Position numbers and translations under genes: made by a program. The notes under the pieces were generated by a model. It saw only the letters and a list, made by a program, of their open reading frames with translations, had not been told where the DNA came from and did no database searches. From NCBI GenBank assembly GCA_021850985.1, contig JAJZJX010000006.1, positions 1-64,000 of the forward strand: a DNA stretch of 64,000 nucleotides, in the 5' to 3' direction. Below, piece after piece: positions 3,045 to 31,928 of this stretch. How positions within the stretch are numbered: the first letter of the stretch is position 1; every line of letters starts with the position of its first letter. The DNA comes from a bacterium. GTDB lineage: Bacteria; SZUA-79; Acidulodesulfobacterales; Acidulodesulfobacteraceae.

Positions 3045-3629
3045 GTGAAAATAAATTTTTTAGACCTGAAAGAATTAAATTCGATGCCTTCGGGAAATAA
3101 CGGAGGGAACGATATTCTGACGGAATATCTTATCGGCAGGATGTTCGATATACACATGGAGTCTTCGCAGACCGTATGGGACAGAAAAATGTTTGACGAA
3201 GAGCTGAAACGCGAAGGCTCGGGATTTTTAATATGCTATTCCGATTCAGGCGATGCAGACGGCGGCGATAACCGGCTTGCTTTAAAAAAATTCACCGAAA
3301 AAGACATAGATCCCGCCTTAAAAATAGGATTGCAATCGTTAATCGCCGGTTTTTTTATTTATTATAACGTTTTAGACGAAATGCATATACTCGATATAAC
3401 GGTTTCTAAAGAAATACAGTCTAAAGGCGTAGGCTCTTTAATGTTAAGCACGGTAATAAAAAAAAATTCGGAAGCAGCCGGAATAAAATATTTCTTTCTA
3501 GAAGTCAGAACCTCAAACATTACCGCAATTAATTTATATAAAAAATTCGGTTTTAAGATATTTATGTTAAGAAAAAACTATTATGAAGACAACGGAGAAG
3601 ACGCTTTATGCATGGTAAAAGAATCGTAA
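3045..3629 (+). CDS. rimI: GNAT acetyltransferase, RimI-like
   Basis: This is a GCN5-family N-acetyltransferase, probably of the RimI class that acetylates the N-terminal alanine of ribosomal protein S18. The acetyl-CoA loop is visible as EIQSKGVGSLML. The RimI-type tail NLYKKFGF followed by YYEDNGEDALCM is also present. The start is GTG at 3045, 6 nt after the previous stop. At 194 aa it is longer than typical RimI (about 150 aa) because of an N-terminal extension with a glycine/aspartate-rich stretch. It overlaps the following pyrK-pyrD gene by 22 nt, which suggests translational coupling. Confidence 0.85.
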   Translation: MKINFLDLKELNSMPSGNNGGNDILTEYLIGRMFDIHMESSQTVWDRKMFDEELKREGSGFLICYSDSGDADGGDNRLALKKFTEKDIDPALKIGLQSLIAGFFIYYNVLDEMHILDITVSKEIQSKGVGSLMLSTVIKKNSEAAGIKYFFLEVRTSNITAINLYKKFGFKIFMLRKNYYEDNGEDALCMVKES

Positions 3630-5617
3630 GCGAAAAATGTCTCGTTACCGTAAATAGAAAAATAAAAGATACCGAAGGCACTTATATTTTAAGAATAAAA
3701 GACGATTTTATCGCGGCAAATTTTAAGCCGGGGCAGTTTGTTATGCTTAAAATTAACCCGGACGGACTAAACCCCCTTTTGAGCAGGCCTTTTTCGATAT
3801 TCAATAAATTTAACGATTCGGAATTTGAAATTTTATACAGGGTTTTCGGAAAAGGCACGGAGATATTAAGCAATATTAAGGAAGGAGCCTATTTAGACGT
3901 TACCGGTCCTTTGGGAAACGGGTTTAAAAACGAAAACGCCGGCATTAACGTTCTGATCGCCGGAGGCATAGGCATAGCGCCCCTGCATACTATTCCGCTT
4001 TTTTTAGGAGAACCCTTATCTTCGGCAGTTCAATCTCCCGCTCAAGACAAAGAATCCGTAAGTTGCGGCAAAACCGTTTTATACTACGGAGCGAAAAAAG
4101 CCGAAGAACTTTATTTCAGGCACAGCATTCACGCTATGTTCGACGAAGTTTACTTTGCTACCGACGATGGCTCTTTCGGCTATAAAGGCAATGTCGTAGA
4201 TTTGCTTTACGAAAATATAGGCGCTTATAAAAATTCGGAAAATACGTCTTTTTATGTCTGCGGACCTAAACCTATGCTTAATTACGTAATTTCCAAATTT
4301 TCCGCGGACGGGCTTTCCGGAAAACTGCAGGTATCTCTCGAAGAAAGTTTCGGATGCGGCATAGGCGTATGTTTAGGATGCGTAGTGAAAACTAATATAA
4401 ACGAAGGCATAACTTCGGACGGCGGCGGCAAAAGCGTTGAATTTCAGTATAAAAGAGTATGTAAAGACGGACCCGTTTTTTACGCCTCCGAAATTTTCAT
4501 TCCGGAAAATGAAAATAACCCCGATTCTATCAGCAAAACCGGAAAAACAGGTAAAGACGGCGGCACCGATTCTGGCCAGCCATTGCTAACGCAGGGAATC
4601 AGTCATTCCGATGCCGGCTCGGAGCAGTCATTGCGAGCAGAGCGAAGCAATTCCCGCACGTATTCATCGGCTATAGACGGTGTTCAGAATATTATCCCCG
4701 ACGTTTCCGTAAAACTCGGAAAATTAAAATTGGACTATCCCGTTATGCCTGCCTCAGGCACATTCGGATACGGAGAAGAATTTTTCGATATTATAGAATA
4801 TAATAATTTCGGAGCTCTCGTCACTAAAGGAATTTCTCTTAATCCGTCTAAAGGAAACGAAATGCCGCGAATTTGCGAAACTTCATGCGGCATGATTAAT
4901 TCGATAGGACTTCAGAACGTCGGATACGATAAATTTATAGAAGCTAAAATGCCGTTTTTAAAAACTTTAAATAAACCCGTAATAGTTAATTTTTACGGAA
5001 GCAGCATAGAAGAATATGTCATACTCGCAAAAAAATTGGCGGAAACTGAAGGTATAAGCGCCATAGAAGCAAACATATCATGTCCCAATATAAAGGAAGG
5101 CGGCAGGTCTTTCGGTTCCGATCCTGAAGTAGTTTATGAACTCGTTTCTTCCGTAAAGGAAAGCACCGCCGGCAAAATTCCGTTAATAGTAAAGCTGACT
5201 CCTATGGTTGCCGATATATCCTTTATAGCGGAGGTTTGCGAAAAAGCCGGAGCGGATATTATTTCTTTAATAAATACTCTGCCTGCGGCAAGCATAGACA
5301 TAAAAACCAAAAAATTTAAACTTAGCAGGGGATACGGCGGACTTTCGGGAGCGGCAGTTAAACCCGTAGCTATTAAACTTGTAGGCGATGTTTATAACGC
5401 AGTAAGAATCCCTGTTATAGGCATGGGCGGCATAAGTTCATGGCAGGATGCCGCAGAATTTTTTCTTGCAGGAGCTGCGGCGGTAGCCGTCGGAACCTAC
5501 TCTTTCGTAAATCCAAAAATAATACCGGAAATTTCCGCCGGATTAAAAAATTATTTGGCGGAAAACGGATTTGACGGTATTTATCAAATAATAGGATTGG
5601 CGCACGGCAGGCGCTGA
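3608..5617 (+). CDS. Fused dihydroorotate dehydrogenase: PyrK electron-transfer and PyrD (type 1B) domains
   Basis: This single 669-aa chain carries both subunits of the NAD-dependent dihydroorotate dehydrogenase of pyrimidine synthesis. Residues 1 to about 300 are PyrK: a ferredoxin-reductase fold with the FAD motif SRPFSI and a 2Fe-2S cysteine set (GCGIGVCLGC, then CKDG). Residues about 365-669 are PyrD, with PASGTFGYG near the FMN site and the class 1 catalytic cysteine in NISCPN. PyrK and PyrD are normally separate neighbours. The linker (about residues 300-365) is hydrophilic and is partly encoded by a dispersed palindromic repeat (4580-4657). The start at 3608 overlaps rimI by 22 nt. 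RmuC follows after 7 nt. Confidence 0.93.
   Translation: MHGKRIVSEKCLVTVNRKIKDTEGTYILRIKDDFIAANFKPGQFVMLKINPDGLNPLLSRPFSIFNKFNDSEFEILYRVFGKGTEILSNIKEGAYLDVTGPLGNGFKNENAGINVLIAGGIGIAPLHTIPLFLGEPLSSAVQSPAQDKESVSCGKTVLYYGAKKAEELYFRHSIHAMFDEVYFATDDGSFGYKGNVVDLLYENIGAYKNSENTSFYVCGPKPMLNYVISKFSADGLSGKLQVSLEESFGCGIGVCLGCVVKTNINEGITSDGGGKSVEFQYKRVCKDGPVFYASEIFIPENENNPDSISKTGKTGKDGGTDSGQPLLTQGISHSDAGSEQSLRAERSNSRTYSSAIDGVQNIIPDVSVKLGKLKLDYPVMPASGTFGYGEEFFDIIEYNNFGALVTKGISLNPSKGNEMPRICETSCGMINSIGLQNVGYDKFIEAKMPFLKTLNKPVIVNFYGSSIEEYVILAKKLAETEGISAIEANISCPNIKEGGRSFGSDPEVVYELVSSVKESTAGKIPLIVKLTPMVADISFIAEVCEKAGADIISLINTLPAASIDIKTKKFKLSRGYGGLSGAAVKPVAIKLVGDVYNAVRIPVIGMGGISSWQDAAEFFLAGAAAVAVGTYSFVNPKIIPEISAGLKNYLAENGFDGIYQIIGLAHGRR
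4580..4657. repeat. Dispersed CATTGCGAG-type palindromic repeat inside pyrK-pyrD
   Basis: The core GTCATTGCGAGCAGAGCGAA followed by GCAATTCCCG resembles the intergenic repeat near 53148-53190, which carries ATTGCGAGCAATAG and GAAGCAATC. Here the repeat is in frame and contributes residues such as SLRAERSNSR to the linker between PyrK and PyrD. Short elements of this type are common between genes and rare inside them. Confidence 0.7.
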
Positions 5618-22356: not shown

Positions 22357-22457
22357 AGAGTAATCCGATTAAATACGCGCACCTTGAATCGATACCGTTG
22401 CTTTCTTTCGAACCTGGCGGGGTTTTCGGTCTTAATGCCGTACCGTCGGATTACTCT
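22357..22457 (-). ncRNA. ffs: Signal recognition particle RNA (small bacterial type)
   Basis: On the minus strand the terminal helix AGAGTAATCCGA/TCGGATTACTCT (12 bp, 22357-22368 with 22446-22457) closes a hairpin of about 101 nt. The tip carries the Ffh-binding pattern ACCCCGCCAGGTTCGAAAG, then AAAGCAACGGTA. This matches the conserved small SRP RNA arrangement (C-CAGG-loop-AGCA). The tetraloop reads GAAA rather than the common GGAA. A TATAAT lies 5 nt upstream of the 5' end. Together with Ffh this RNA targets membrane proteins. Confidence 0.85.
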
Positions 22458-28821: not shown

Positions 28822-28898
28822 CGGGACGTAGCGCAGCTCGGTAGCGCACTTGCTTCGGGAGCAAGGGGTCGCTGGTTCAAATCCAGTCGTCCCGACCA
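28822..28898 (+). tRNA. tRNA-Pro (anticodon CGG)
   Basis: The 77-nt cloverleaf has acceptor CGGGACG/CGTCCCG, D arm GCGC/GCGC, anticodon stem CTTGC/GCAAG with loop TTCGGGA, T arm GCTGG/CCAGT and an encoded CCA end. The middle of the anticodon loop reads CGG. Its 3' half serves as the attachment site of the element that follows. A TATAAT at 28795-28800 is the likely -10 box. Confidence 0.95.
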
Positions 28899-28900
28899 TT
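28848..28900 (+). other. attL-like site (3' half of tRNA-Pro)
   Basis: These 53 bp recur at 30629-30681 with only two differences. Tyrosine integrases commonly target tRNA 3' halves, and the integrase remnant begins 146 nt downstream, so this is the intact tRNA-side attachment site. Confidence 0.8.
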
Positions 28901-29001
28901 CAAAACCGCAGTAAATAAGCAGTTTCAGCAACATTCCGCTTGACAGCAATATGAATCTGGATGTAAAATTATGAATGAAAATGAGGCAAAATGTAAAAAT
29001 T

Positions 29002-29028
29002 TTACTACTTATTTACTACCATTACTAC
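29002..29028 (+). repeat. Three TTACTAC direct repeats upstream of the integrase fragment
   Basis: TTACTAC occurs at 29002, 29013 and 29022, about one helical turn apart. A further ATTTACTACC lies inside the integrase gene near 29234. They could be arm-type integrase sites or repressor sites. Confidence 0.45.
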
Positions 29029-29046
29029 CTTTAAGAGGAGTAGAAA

Positions 29047-29280
29047 ATGGCTTCTATTTACCGCAAGAAAGGCAACGATATCTGGTATTACAGCATAACC
29101 TACGGGGGCAAAAGATATCAGGGAACCACTAAAACCACCGACAAACAATCCGCAAAACTAATTGCAGAGGCAAAGCAAACCGACATAGCGCGGGAAAAGA
29201 ACTACCTGCCGGCTTTAAAAAAGACGGTAGTAAGATTTACTACCCTTAGGGATAAATATCTTAACTCCGACAGTGTTTGA
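29047..29280 (+). pseudogene. Tyrosine integrase, N-terminal fragment
   Basis: The 77 codons encode the arm-binding N-terminal domain of a phage-type integrase (ASIYRKKGNDIWYYSITYGG, then KTTDKQSAKLIAEAKQTDIA). The core-binding and catalytic domains (R-H-R-Y residues) are absent. A proper Shine-Dalgarno (AGAGGAG) precedes the ATG. The frame ends in TGA at the point where the next ORF begins, consistent with a deletion junction near 29270. Confidence 0.8.
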
Positions 29281-29746
29281 AGATGAAGAACTTAAATTGT
29301 CTTCTAACGATTTATATTTCTTATATGGAAAGTTCCTAAAAAAGGTTGATGTTGACCCAAGGAAAGACATTGAATTTTTACTGAAAGAGGGGGGGGGGTC
29401 CTATTACAACATATTTAAACTTTTCAATAATTCGTTATCCGGCGTAAGCGGCAGGGATTTCAGGACGATGACAAAAACATTCAAACGTCCGGATGCAAAA
29501 CCGCATAAACAGAAAGCCAACGAAGAAGCTATTAAAAAAATAATTACAGAAAGCAAAATGAATGCCAATATCGTCAATGCGGTAAGATTAGTTCGATTCT
29601 TTTCAAAAAGGGATGCAAACAACATAGTCCAAATACTATTAAAAAATTCTTCCGATTGTTCAAGCACGGAGGTCGAGAAAAAAATAGAAATCCCAATGGA
29701 TGTCCTGTTTAAAGTCGGATTGTGCGTATTATACGACAAAATTTGA
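29273..29746 (+). CDS. Hypothetical protein with a G10 tract
   Basis: This 157-aa frame overlaps the end of the integrase fragment by 8 nt and starts with GTG. No known domain is recognised. The N-terminal 60 residues look like a small helical domain. The middle is basic (KTFKRPDAKPHKQKANEEA), and helices follow. A run of ten G residues at 29389-29398 encodes three glycines (EGGGS), and loss or gain of a G would shift the frame. It may be the 3' part of a longer gene joined to the integrase by deletion. Confidence 0.45.
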   Translation: MFEDEELKLSSNDLYFLYGKFLKKVDVDPRKDIEFLLKEGGGSYYNIFKLFNNSLSGVSGRDFRTMTKTFKRPDAKPHKQKANEEAIKKIITESKMNANIVNAVRLVRFFSKRDANNIVQILLKNSSDCSSTEVEKKIEIPMDVLFKVGLCVLYDKI

Positions 29747-29816
29747 TTTTCCGTAAGATTTTACATTCATTTTTAATTTTTATATAATATAATTATACAC
29801 AGATATTGTTACATAT

Positions 29817-30155
29817 TTGTATAAAATATGTAACAATGATATTACGAATTTTGAATGGGACAAGTCTAAAAGCAACGCAAATAAAAGTAAACACGGTATT
29901 GATTTTGAAACCGCAAAAAATATATTTTTAGATGAAAACCGTGTTGAAATTATAGCCCCGTATCCAATAGAAAATAGATTTATTAACATAGGAAAACTTA
30001 AGGGATAATTATGGACCGTCATTTTTACAATAAAAGGAGATGCTATAAGAATTATTTCCGCAAGACGTTCAAGAAAAAAAGAGGTAAAACTATATGGAAA
30101 TAACGTTTGTAAACGTCGGGGCAGGGAAAAAAAATATATGTTTATATCCCCTTAA
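29817..30155 (+). pseudogene. brnT: BrnT-type toxin gene with an in-frame stop
   Basis: The frame begins with the BrnT hallmark FEWDKSKSNANKSKHGIDFE. It then reaches IGKLKG and a TAA at 30006-30008. In the same frame the sequence resumes directly with LWTVIFTIKGDAIRIISARR and SRKKE, the conserved second half of BrnT ribonuclease toxins. The single TAA therefore splits one gene. A TTG at 29817 is the track's start. An inverted repeat (GTTACATAT/ATATGTAAC, 29807-29833) overlaps the start and resembles an autorepression operator. No BrnA antitoxin is recognised downstream. Confidence 0.75.
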
Positions 30156-30228
30156 ACCCACTGAAAAATCGAGAATAAGAATGAAGAAAAAATCCTTTAT
30201 TATTTTAAAGAACGGCGGTATAATTTAA
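30094..30228 (+). CDS. Possible small protein (44 aa)
   Basis: A short frame with AGAGG ten nt before its ATG sits in the position where a brnA antitoxin is expected. Its product (GAGKKNICLYPLKPTEKSR in the centre) shows no resemblance to BrnA. It overlaps the tail of the brnT pseudogene in another frame. It is likely decayed sequence. Confidence 0.2.
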   Translation: MEITFVNVGAGKKNICLYPLKPTEKSRIRMKKKSFIILKNGGII

Positions 30229-30261
30229 TAAAGAATTAACTTAATTTAGGAGGTAAAATCG

Positions 30262-30543
30262 ATGGCGTCGGTTATTGTTTTGCCCGAAGCTTTGATTAAA
30301 AATACAAATAAAGAAGAGCAGAAGGAACTTGCCGAATTTTTTAATGGAATTAGTAAATCGGCAAGCGAAGCAACTATTTTGACCGTAGAAGAAAAGTTTG
30401 AAAGACGCTTAACGGAAGAAATATCTAAAGTTAATGCAAGAATTTCAGAAACAAAAACCGATATTATTAAATGGATGTTTATATTCTGGGTAGGACAGAT
30501 AGGCGTATTAGTGGCTATTTTAAGTCTGTTTTTTAAACATTAA
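30262..30543 (+). CDS. Small coiled-coil protein with C-terminal membrane helix (DUF1640-like)
   Basis: The 93-aa product has a short N-terminal domain, a coiled coil (EEKFERRLTEEISKVNARIS) and one C-terminal membrane helix (WMFIFWVGQIGVLVAILSLF). This resembles the CCDC90/DUF1640-type proteins found in many mobile and accessory regions. GGAGG lies 8 nt before the ATG. The protein at 62307 has the same architecture with a longer stalk. The function is unknown. Confidence 0.7.
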   Translation: MASVIVLPEALIKNTNKEEQKELAEFFNGISKSASEATILTVEEKFERRLTEEISKVNARISETKTDIIKWMFIFWVGQIGVLVAILSLFFKH

Positions 30544-30628
30544 AAATAACTTTTGTCTCAAATTTGTCCCATAACATTTTTTATAAAGAAAATTACTTAA
30601 TAATATTAATAAGTTATAATATGCAATA

Positions 30629-30681
30629 ACTTGCTTCGGAAGCAAGGGGTCGCTGGTTCAAATCCAGTCGTCCCGAACATT
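30629..30681 (+). other. attR-like site (duplicate of the tRNA-Pro 3' half)
   Basis: This copies 53 bp of tRNA-Pro with two substitutions (GGGAGC becomes GGAAGC, and GACCAT becomes GAACAT). It lacks the 5' half, so it cannot make a tRNA. It marks the right end of the integrated element. Confidence 0.8.
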
Positions 30682-31017: not shown

Positions 31018-31045
31018 TTGAAATTTCAAAAATATGCGTTATAAT
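31018..31045 (+). promoter_or_regulatory. Orphan promoter upstream of a structured region
   Basis: TTGAAA (31018-31023), a 16-nt spacer and a perfect TATAAT (31040-31045). No credible gene starts within the next 250 nt, and the HIT gene has its own promoter at 31304. Confidence 0.55.
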
Positions 31046-31051
31046 TAAATT

Positions 31052-31201
31052 AAAGAAGAAAAAAATAAGTTTAAGGCAAAGAAATTTTAGAGTATATGTT
31101 TTTATGCAGCATGCCGCCGTCAGTCAGTTTAATGCTTAACTTTAAGCACATTGGACGTTAAAAACCAGTGACTGCAACGGCGGTACTTTTATTTCTAAAA
31201 T
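31052..31201 (+). ncRNA. Candidate structured non-coding RNA
   Basis: Three nested helices can be drawn. The outer is ATTTTAGA/TCTAAAAT (31084-31091 with 31194-31201). The middle is GCCGCCGT plus AGTCA against TGACT plus ACGGCGG. The apical is AATG and CTTAA against TTAAG and CATT. A good sigma-70 promoter lies directly upstream, and a T-rich stretch (TACTTTTATTTC) follows the GC-rich stem. A 21-codon frame from ATG near 31094 has no ribosome binding site. This stretch of about 410 nt between tRNA-Gly and the HIT gene holds no other gene. Confidence 0.45.
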
Positions 31202-31303
31202 ACGAATTTGCCTTAATGCCTCAATCGTAATCCTGCCGAATATCAAATAAAGCAATTGTAATTTATCGTAATTCCGCACTTAAATTATAATCGTAAAATT
31301 TTA

Positions 31304-31332
31304 TTGTTTAAATTTCATAAATTATTTATAAT
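31304..31332 (+). promoter_or_regulatory. Promoter of the HIT-protein gene, probably leaderless
   Basis: TTGTTT (31304-31309), a 17-nt spacer and a perfect TATAAT (31327-31332). The ATG follows after 8 nt and there is no Shine-Dalgarno. Confidence 0.65.
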
Positions 31333-31340
31333 AAAAAATT

Positions 31341-31808
31341 ATGAAATTTAAAGAAGACTGCATTTTTTGTAAAATAGCGAATAAACTGATACCTGCCGAA
31401 ATAATCGAGGAAACGGACGGTTTTATCGTAATAAAGGATATGAATCCGGTAGCGCCGATACATCTTTTGATAATCTCCAAGTTGCACTACGACAGCGTTT
31501 TAGATGCCGGGTGTAAAGTTGACGCCGATAAAAACAGCGGTGATATAAGTGAAGAAGACGGCAGCAAAAATAAATCAAATCTCAGCGAAAATTATAAAAG
31601 CGGCGATACTGCCGATGACGATGATTTGGAAATCTGCGGCAGCGGTAAAGAACTTTTTGGAATATTAGGTTCGCTTGCCGACAAATTCAACGTTGCGGAT
31701 AAAGGCTTCAGGACGGTTATCAATACTAAAGAAGACGGAGGACAGACCGTCAACCATCTTCATATTCATTTTATGGCCGGCAGGGGATTCGGCTGGCCGC
31801 CGGGTTAA
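31341..31808 (+). CDS. HIT family nucleotide hydrolase
   Basis: This HINT-like histidine-triad protein is 155 aa long. It has CIFCKIANKLIPAEI at the N-terminus (CxxC zinc knuckle half) and the catalytic triad NHLHIHFMAGRG near the end. Family members hydrolyse nucleoside phosphoramidates. An insertion of about 45 residues rich in Asp, Ser, Asn and Lys (roughly residues 57-100) interrupts the domain. HINT proteins are usually about 110-120 aa. A family A repeat follows the stop. Transcription is probably leaderless. Confidence 0.92.
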   Translation: MKFKEDCIFCKIANKLIPAEIIEETDGFIVIKDMNPVAPIHLLIISKLHYDSVLDAGCKVDADKNSGDISEEDGSKNKSNLSENYKSGDTADDDDLEICGSGKELFGILGSLADKFNVADKGFRTVINTKEDGGQTVNHLHIHFMAGRGFGWPPG

Positions 31809-31839: not shown

Positions 31840-31928
31840 GGAAAAGGCGTCAGATTTTATTTTCCGCATATATAACGGTCAATTAACATAAAATTTATTT
31901 GCGGAAAATTAATCTGACGCCTTTTCCG
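31840..31928. repeat. Family A palindromic repeat, copy 3
   Basis: GGAAAAGGCGTCAGATTTTA on the left and, on the right, TTAATCTGACGCCTTTTCC, separated by about 35 nt. The arms are about 27 bp. It lies between the HIT gene and speE. Confidence 0.8.

Follow-up and report, generated by a model that had tools for sequence, protein, structure and literature searches.

Background

Small RNAs derived from the 3′ ends of mRNAs have been described in enterobacteria and vibrios, among them SdhX, OppZ and CpxQ, the last matching the 3′ end of the mRNA of a stress gene, cpxP (PMC9438474). DnrH of Deinococcus radiodurans is described as a non-coding RNA that targets hsp20 and is linked with heat (PMC6798082), and in a metatranscriptome of Ca. 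Acidulodesulfobacterales, hsp20 was among the most abundant transcripts (PMC6776010). The locus analyzed here appears to be closest in kind to a 3′-UTR-derived sRNA such as CpxQ. It is likely to be a stand-alone non-coding RNA gene of ~140 nt that arose when hsp20-A, which encodes a small heat-shock protein, lost its open reading frame and its 3′ UTR remained.

Genomes and features of the locus

The window, meaning the whole 64,000-nt stretch of DNA that was analyzed, comes from a 1.9-Mb genome (81% complete) of genus g1. Comparisons were made within 30 genomes of a single family, which is the whole phylum in the set searched and contains six genera (g1–g6). The features of the locus are:

31018–31045, + strand: promoter TTGAAA-N16-TATAAT, found by consensus scan; homologous to the hsp20-A promoters of other genera
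31046–31065, + strand: leader, aligning with the hsp20-A 5′ UTR of the sister genus g3
31060–31112, + strand: probable deletion scar, resembling the end of the hsp20-A ORF (TAA at 31066–31068) and the start of its 3′ UTR
31113–31184, + strand: core structured RNA, present in six genera
31113–31120 with 31177–31184, + strand: closing GC stem P1, kept by compensatory change across the six genera
31121–31124 with 31171–31174, or extended to 31126/31169, + strand: stem P2
31133–31148, + strand: hairpin H1, UGCUUA-NNNN-UAAGCA, with a stem invariant in six genera and a variable loop
31149–31170, + strand: hairpin H2 (CAUUGG/CCAGUG in the window), differing in sequence and length between genera, foldable in all
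31185–31194, + strand: T-run after P1, the intrinsic-terminator end; a terminator-like site in the scan, kept in g1
31341–31808, + strand: HIT-domain gene, the downstream neighbor, with its own upstream region and not part of the RNA

The promoter proposed in the sequence-only reading of this DNA is present, with the −35 element TTGAAA at 31018–31023, a 16-nt spacer and TATAAT at 31040–31045 (11/12 consensus matches in the promoter consensus scan). Only 8 equally good promoter sites occur in the 64-kb window, and in relatives the promoter is kept nearly base for base. Its −35 element lies within the palindrome TTGAAATTTCAA (31018–31029). Transcription would be expected to start near 31052 and, from the position of the terminator, the predicted transcript would span ~31052–31192 (~140 nt). 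The separate promoter for the HIT gene that the same reading placed at 31304 was borne out in part: TTGTTT-N17-TATAAT can be recognized by eye and is conserved upstream of HIT in relatives, but it was not returned by the consensus scan. The two conserved halves of the HIT protein are separated by an insert with many Asp, Ser, Gly and Lys residues, and the length of the whole protein ranges from 120 to 183 aa in close relatives.

Several other features were recorded in the window. The bacterial small SRP RNA (RF00169) is encoded at 22359–22452 on the − strand. The 3′ part of tRNA-Pro (28848–28900) is repeated 1781 bases downstream (30629–30681; 53 nt, 96%), and the two repeats bracket short ORFs lacking a convincing Pfam match, the first of which (29047) resembles the start of a truncated integrase; 28848–30681 thus looks like a decayed island in a tRNA gene. 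At 31842–31925 is an inverted-repeat element, AAAAGGCGTCAGATT...AATCTGACGCCTTTT, a 15-mer of which occurs 27 times in the genome (reversed control, 0), including three facing pairs ~70 bases apart and one copy upstream of hsp20-B; its repetition and arrangement mark it as a putative MITE- or REP-like family.

Folding and core structure

The folding check suggested by the sequence-only reading came out in favor of a structured RNA: 31050–31225 (176 nt) folds with −48.3 kcal/mol (z −4.3), with 0/200 shuffles as good, and the 82-nt core 31109–31190 alone gives −29.4 kcal/mol (z −4.6). The reverse strand folds nearly as well, as any hairpin does, so the RNA was oriented by its promoter, its T-run and the hsp20 context. 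In the consensus structure, a three-way junction sits above an intrinsic terminator, which is formed by the GC-rich stem P1 and the U-run that follows it. The copy in the window has an unbranched alternative as its minimum-energy fold; the branched form is a comparative choice, made because three g1 relatives (L012, L014 and L026) fold in this way. H2 was predicted in every genus with H1 formed.

Of three nested helices previously claimed, the GC-rich middle stem, which is P1, and the T-rich 3′ stretch that follows it (31187–31194) are present, and the outer helix at ~31084/31201 did not hold up. This helix and another that the sequence-only reading had missed (31071–31080 with 31208–31217) both cross the T-run and extend past the terminator, and neither shows compensatory change in the comparison within g1; both were rejected. 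The element had no credible match in Rfam 15 at gathering or relaxed thresholds, which agrees with the earlier statement that it belongs to no recognized family. 6S RNA, a first guess from the long hairpin, was rejected because RF00013 has no match in the genome and the element matches no Rfam model.

Distribution and conservation

Within g1, the element was detected in 12 of 16 genomes (E 1e-22 or better; 1–2 copies each, two genomes with two), and the four genomes lacking it are all incomplete (59–86%). Promoter, spacer and core are nearly invariant among these copies; the adjacent HIT protein is 61–83% identical. The neighboring gene is HIT at 5 loci and uvrB at 6, and otherwise a ccdA-like gene, a transposase, an ATPase or others. 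Because the neighbors differ between g1 loci, the element behaves as an independent gene and not as a leader. At one locus, L126 (G013:C4), two elements (3195–3276 and 4904–4985) lie 1.7 kb apart on either side of an opposite-strand gene for a 416-aa ATPase, and these copies differ too much for a recent duplication. Copies of the g1 type were also found in one g2 genome (G023:C74) and one g5 genome (G026:C125) and may be misbinned contigs or transfers; the former is on a 5.6-kb contig beside a g1-like HIT gene and spermidine synthase. The element was absent from 290 genomes of other families searched with stricter filters, and the one match in viral contigs, inside an ORF, was judged to be due to chance.

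In g2–g6, the same three-way-junction core lies directly behind one orthologous gene, hsp20-A, the product of which is an Hsp20 protein of 144–146 aa (Pfam PF00011), a likely origin in a 3′ UTR that had escaped the sequence-only reading. The element was recognized by a covariance model in g3–g6, and by eye and motif in g2. In g4 and g5 it ends an hsp20-A gene that faces a convergent gene. The H1 stem is identical in all genera, with the loops ACUU, ACUA, GUUA, AUCA and AUUA; as the stem never varies, its pairing is not itself supported by covariation. The sequence of P1 differs between genera, but its pairing is preserved in all of them, and a U-rich run always comes after it. With the P1 arms aligned by hand from the closing pair, 72/72 cells of the outer six pairs are paired among 12 distinct sequences; shuffling the arms among the sequences left 46 cells paired on average and 64 at most. 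The motif TGCTTANNNNTAAGCA is practically unique to the element locus in each genome and is absent from two g2 genomes that have no hsp20-A.

These comparisons strongly support the proposal of a non-coding RNA with its own promoter, as the promoter is conserved, P1 is compensated across six genera and the g1 core is near-invariant. Unconserved paired bases, which the sequence-only reading had named as grounds for abandoning the RNA, were not what was found: compensatory changes, which it had suggested looking for in related genomes, maintain the terminator stem.

Relationship to hsp20-A

The promoter and leader of the g1 RNA align with the hsp20-A promoter and 5′ UTR of g3 over 50 columns (44/50 identities, score 36); the maximum among ~2000 other window segments was 19, and the upstream regions of groES and hsp20-B scored at most 20. 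By this homology, the g1 RNA promoter appears to be the hsp20-A promoter. Hsp20 promoters of the clade have TTGAAA-N16-TATNAT or close variants in common. A heat-shock regulon shared with groES was considered and rejected; because groES has a CIRCE-type operator and a different promoter, the resemblance to the RNA promoter is confined to hsp20 promoters. A sigma factor of ~300–350 aa that is RpoH-like, matching rpoH_proteo well below the curated cut-off, is encoded in nearly all of the 30 genomes. Given Hsp20-type promoters together with this below-cut-off RpoH-like factor, stress control of the RNA is plausible.

When the 30 genomes were searched with the g5 hsp20-A protein, matches of 64–100% were obtained in g2–g6, except in two g2 genomes. 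No hsp20-A was found in g1, where the best match was a paralogue of 50–54%, likely orthologues of which coexist with hsp20-A in g3, g4 and g6. Immediately behind the leader, AAATAAGTTTAAGGCAAAG..AAATTTTA in the window is similar to the stop codon of hsp20-A and the start of its 3′ UTR in g3 and g4 (scores 15 and 13, respectively; 0/300 shuffles as high in both), a similarity that is short, is weaker in other g1 copies and is weak in most. In a midpoint-rooted GroEL tree, g3 is sister to g1 (support 96/95), and g5, g4 and g2+g6 branch outside. Because g1 nests beside g3, hsp20-A and the element would be ancestral and the ORF lost once. No gene neighborhood is common to the g1 elements and the hsp20-A loci of other genera, so that ORF loss rests on sequence homology and not on synteny; gene order gives no help, as hsp20-A neighborhoods differ among the genera examined.

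Most simply, the g1 ancestor would have lost the coding sequence of hsp20-A once and retained the promoter, the leader and the terminator element. In the ancestors, as in the other genera, the hsp20-A mRNA would end in a three-way junction composed of a variable GC stem doubling as intrinsic terminator, the invariant UGCUUA-NNNN-UAAGCA hairpin and a variable hairpin. With the coding sequence gone, the parts that stayed would have become joined, and the former hsp20-A 3′ UTR would now be transcribed directly. In support of this likely derivation, the sequences document a conserved promoter, a covarying terminator stem, a 3′-UTR position in five genera, the absence of hsp20-A from g1 and the homology of promoter and leader.

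Alternative explanations and possible function

The element could instead be a cis-acting leader, an attenuator or riboswitch-like conditional terminator upstream of HIT or uvrB, since most g1 copies are codirectional with the next gene (HIT at 5 loci, uvrB at 6), which starts ~80–150 nt past the T-run, and alternative pairing of the outer helices around the terminator is conceivable. We regard this as improbable, as the downstream genes are unrelated (HIT, uvrB, ccdA-like, transposase and convergent genes), with no constant association, the alternative outer helices lack compensatory changes, and in g2–g6 the element ends hsp20-A, with a convergent gene facing it in g4 and g5. It is also unlikely that the element is a mere conserved strong terminator, left over from hsp20-A and serving only to end transcription. 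P1 and the T-run do make a good terminator, and compensatory changes maintain P1 in every genus, but varying neighbors leave no constant gene to terminate. Termination alone would require neither an invariant hairpin inside the element nor a conserved promoter that transcribes no other gene, and for this reason the RNA probably does something itself.

At the DNA level, the conserved part is a perfect 6-4-6 palindrome, TGCTTA-N4-TAAGCA, with invariant arms and a free spacer, as might be expected of an operator for a dimeric repressor with half-sites one helical turn apart. Such a role is very unlikely: each genome contains about one copy of the palindrome, which lies almost exclusively inside the element. 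There it is always flanked by covarying RNA stems and a T-run, and it follows a promoter or a gene. Of the few other occurrences, those that were read (G016:C2, G027:C20 and G008:C78) lie in unrelated sequence, and a genome-wide operator role was rejected by the counts. A small protein of 21 or 16 codons is scarcely credible. The frame MPPSVSLMLNFKHIGR is open from an ATG in 13/16 g1 copies, or 14/16 if a GTG start is counted; however, it has no ribosome-binding site. The start of the 21-codon version, a peptide that the sequence-only reading had raised against its own proposal, is present in just 2/16 g1 copies, and L014 and L026 have no start at all. The frame is interrupted by an in-frame stop in g5 sequences and absent outside g1, and the invariance extends to third positions, as expected for RNA.

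In our preferred reading, a stand-alone RNA gene derived from hsp20-A, the persistence of selection after ORF loss argues that the RNA itself has a function. We infer that the element is transcribed, that its expression remains under hsp20-type (stress) control, and that the invariant hairpin serves as a binding site in trans, making the element a putative trans-acting stress RNA. Most likely, it would be a regulatory or protein-binding RNA that was already working within the hsp20-A message. Because the H1 stem is invariant and its loop is free, recognition of the stem by a protein or nuclease is favored over a kissing loop or loop seed. No match to Hfq (PF17209) was found in the 30 genomes of the clade, and a rough comparison of duplexes with 61 start regions, that of hsp20-B among them, gave nothing usable as a base-pairing target. 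A more specific and speculative possibility is that, in a phylum without recognizable Hfq, H1 is the binding site of an unrecognized RNA-binding protein or of Hsp20 itself, that the hsp20-A mRNA had this RNA function besides encoding its protein, and that the function of the RNA outlived the hsp20-A protein in one genus, giving a new stand-alone stress RNA by ORF loss.

Comparison with known systems

Like 6S RNA (RF00013), which is of similar size, the element is predicted to stand alone and to contain a long hairpin, but it has a branched core instead of an open central bubble and does not match the RF00013 model. DnrH, also a non-coding RNA from a bacterium, shares the link with Hsp20 and heat; compared by its description, it differs in not being known to descend from an hsp20 3′ UTR. 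MicL/MicX-type sRNAs resemble the element in having their own promoter at the 3′ end of an mRNA and a shared terminator. The MicL promoter lies within a neighboring ORF, which persists, whereas the promoter here would be that of the lost gene.

The likeness to CpxQ, SdhX and OppZ is that the RNA is a messenger 3′ end with its intrinsic terminator, and the parent of CpxQ is also a stress gene. Descent from a 3′ UTR is indicated by the position of the element in the hsp20-A 3′ UTR of g2–g6 and by promoter/leader homology in g1. In those systems the parental ORF is kept, the RNA is processed or started inside the gene, and many of the RNAs are Hfq-dependent; here, the ORF is gone, the parent's promoter would drive the RNA, and the clade has no Hfq match. 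In a narrow literature search, no published case was found in which the parent ORF was lost and its own promoter makes the 3′-UTR RNA, and the narrowness of that search leads us to state novelty with reserve. To our knowledge, the birth of new bacterial sRNA genes is largely an open question, and relatives are rarely close enough to show the step. The element would define an RNA family restricted to this phylum, with an invariant hairpin, in organisms that have no recognizable Hfq, and it would make it possible to ask directly whether the tails of mRNAs have functions that can be separated from that of the protein. In this one small phylum, all stages can be seen together: the RNA forms an mRNA tail in five genera, and a genus nested among them has the promoter and the tail but no ORF.
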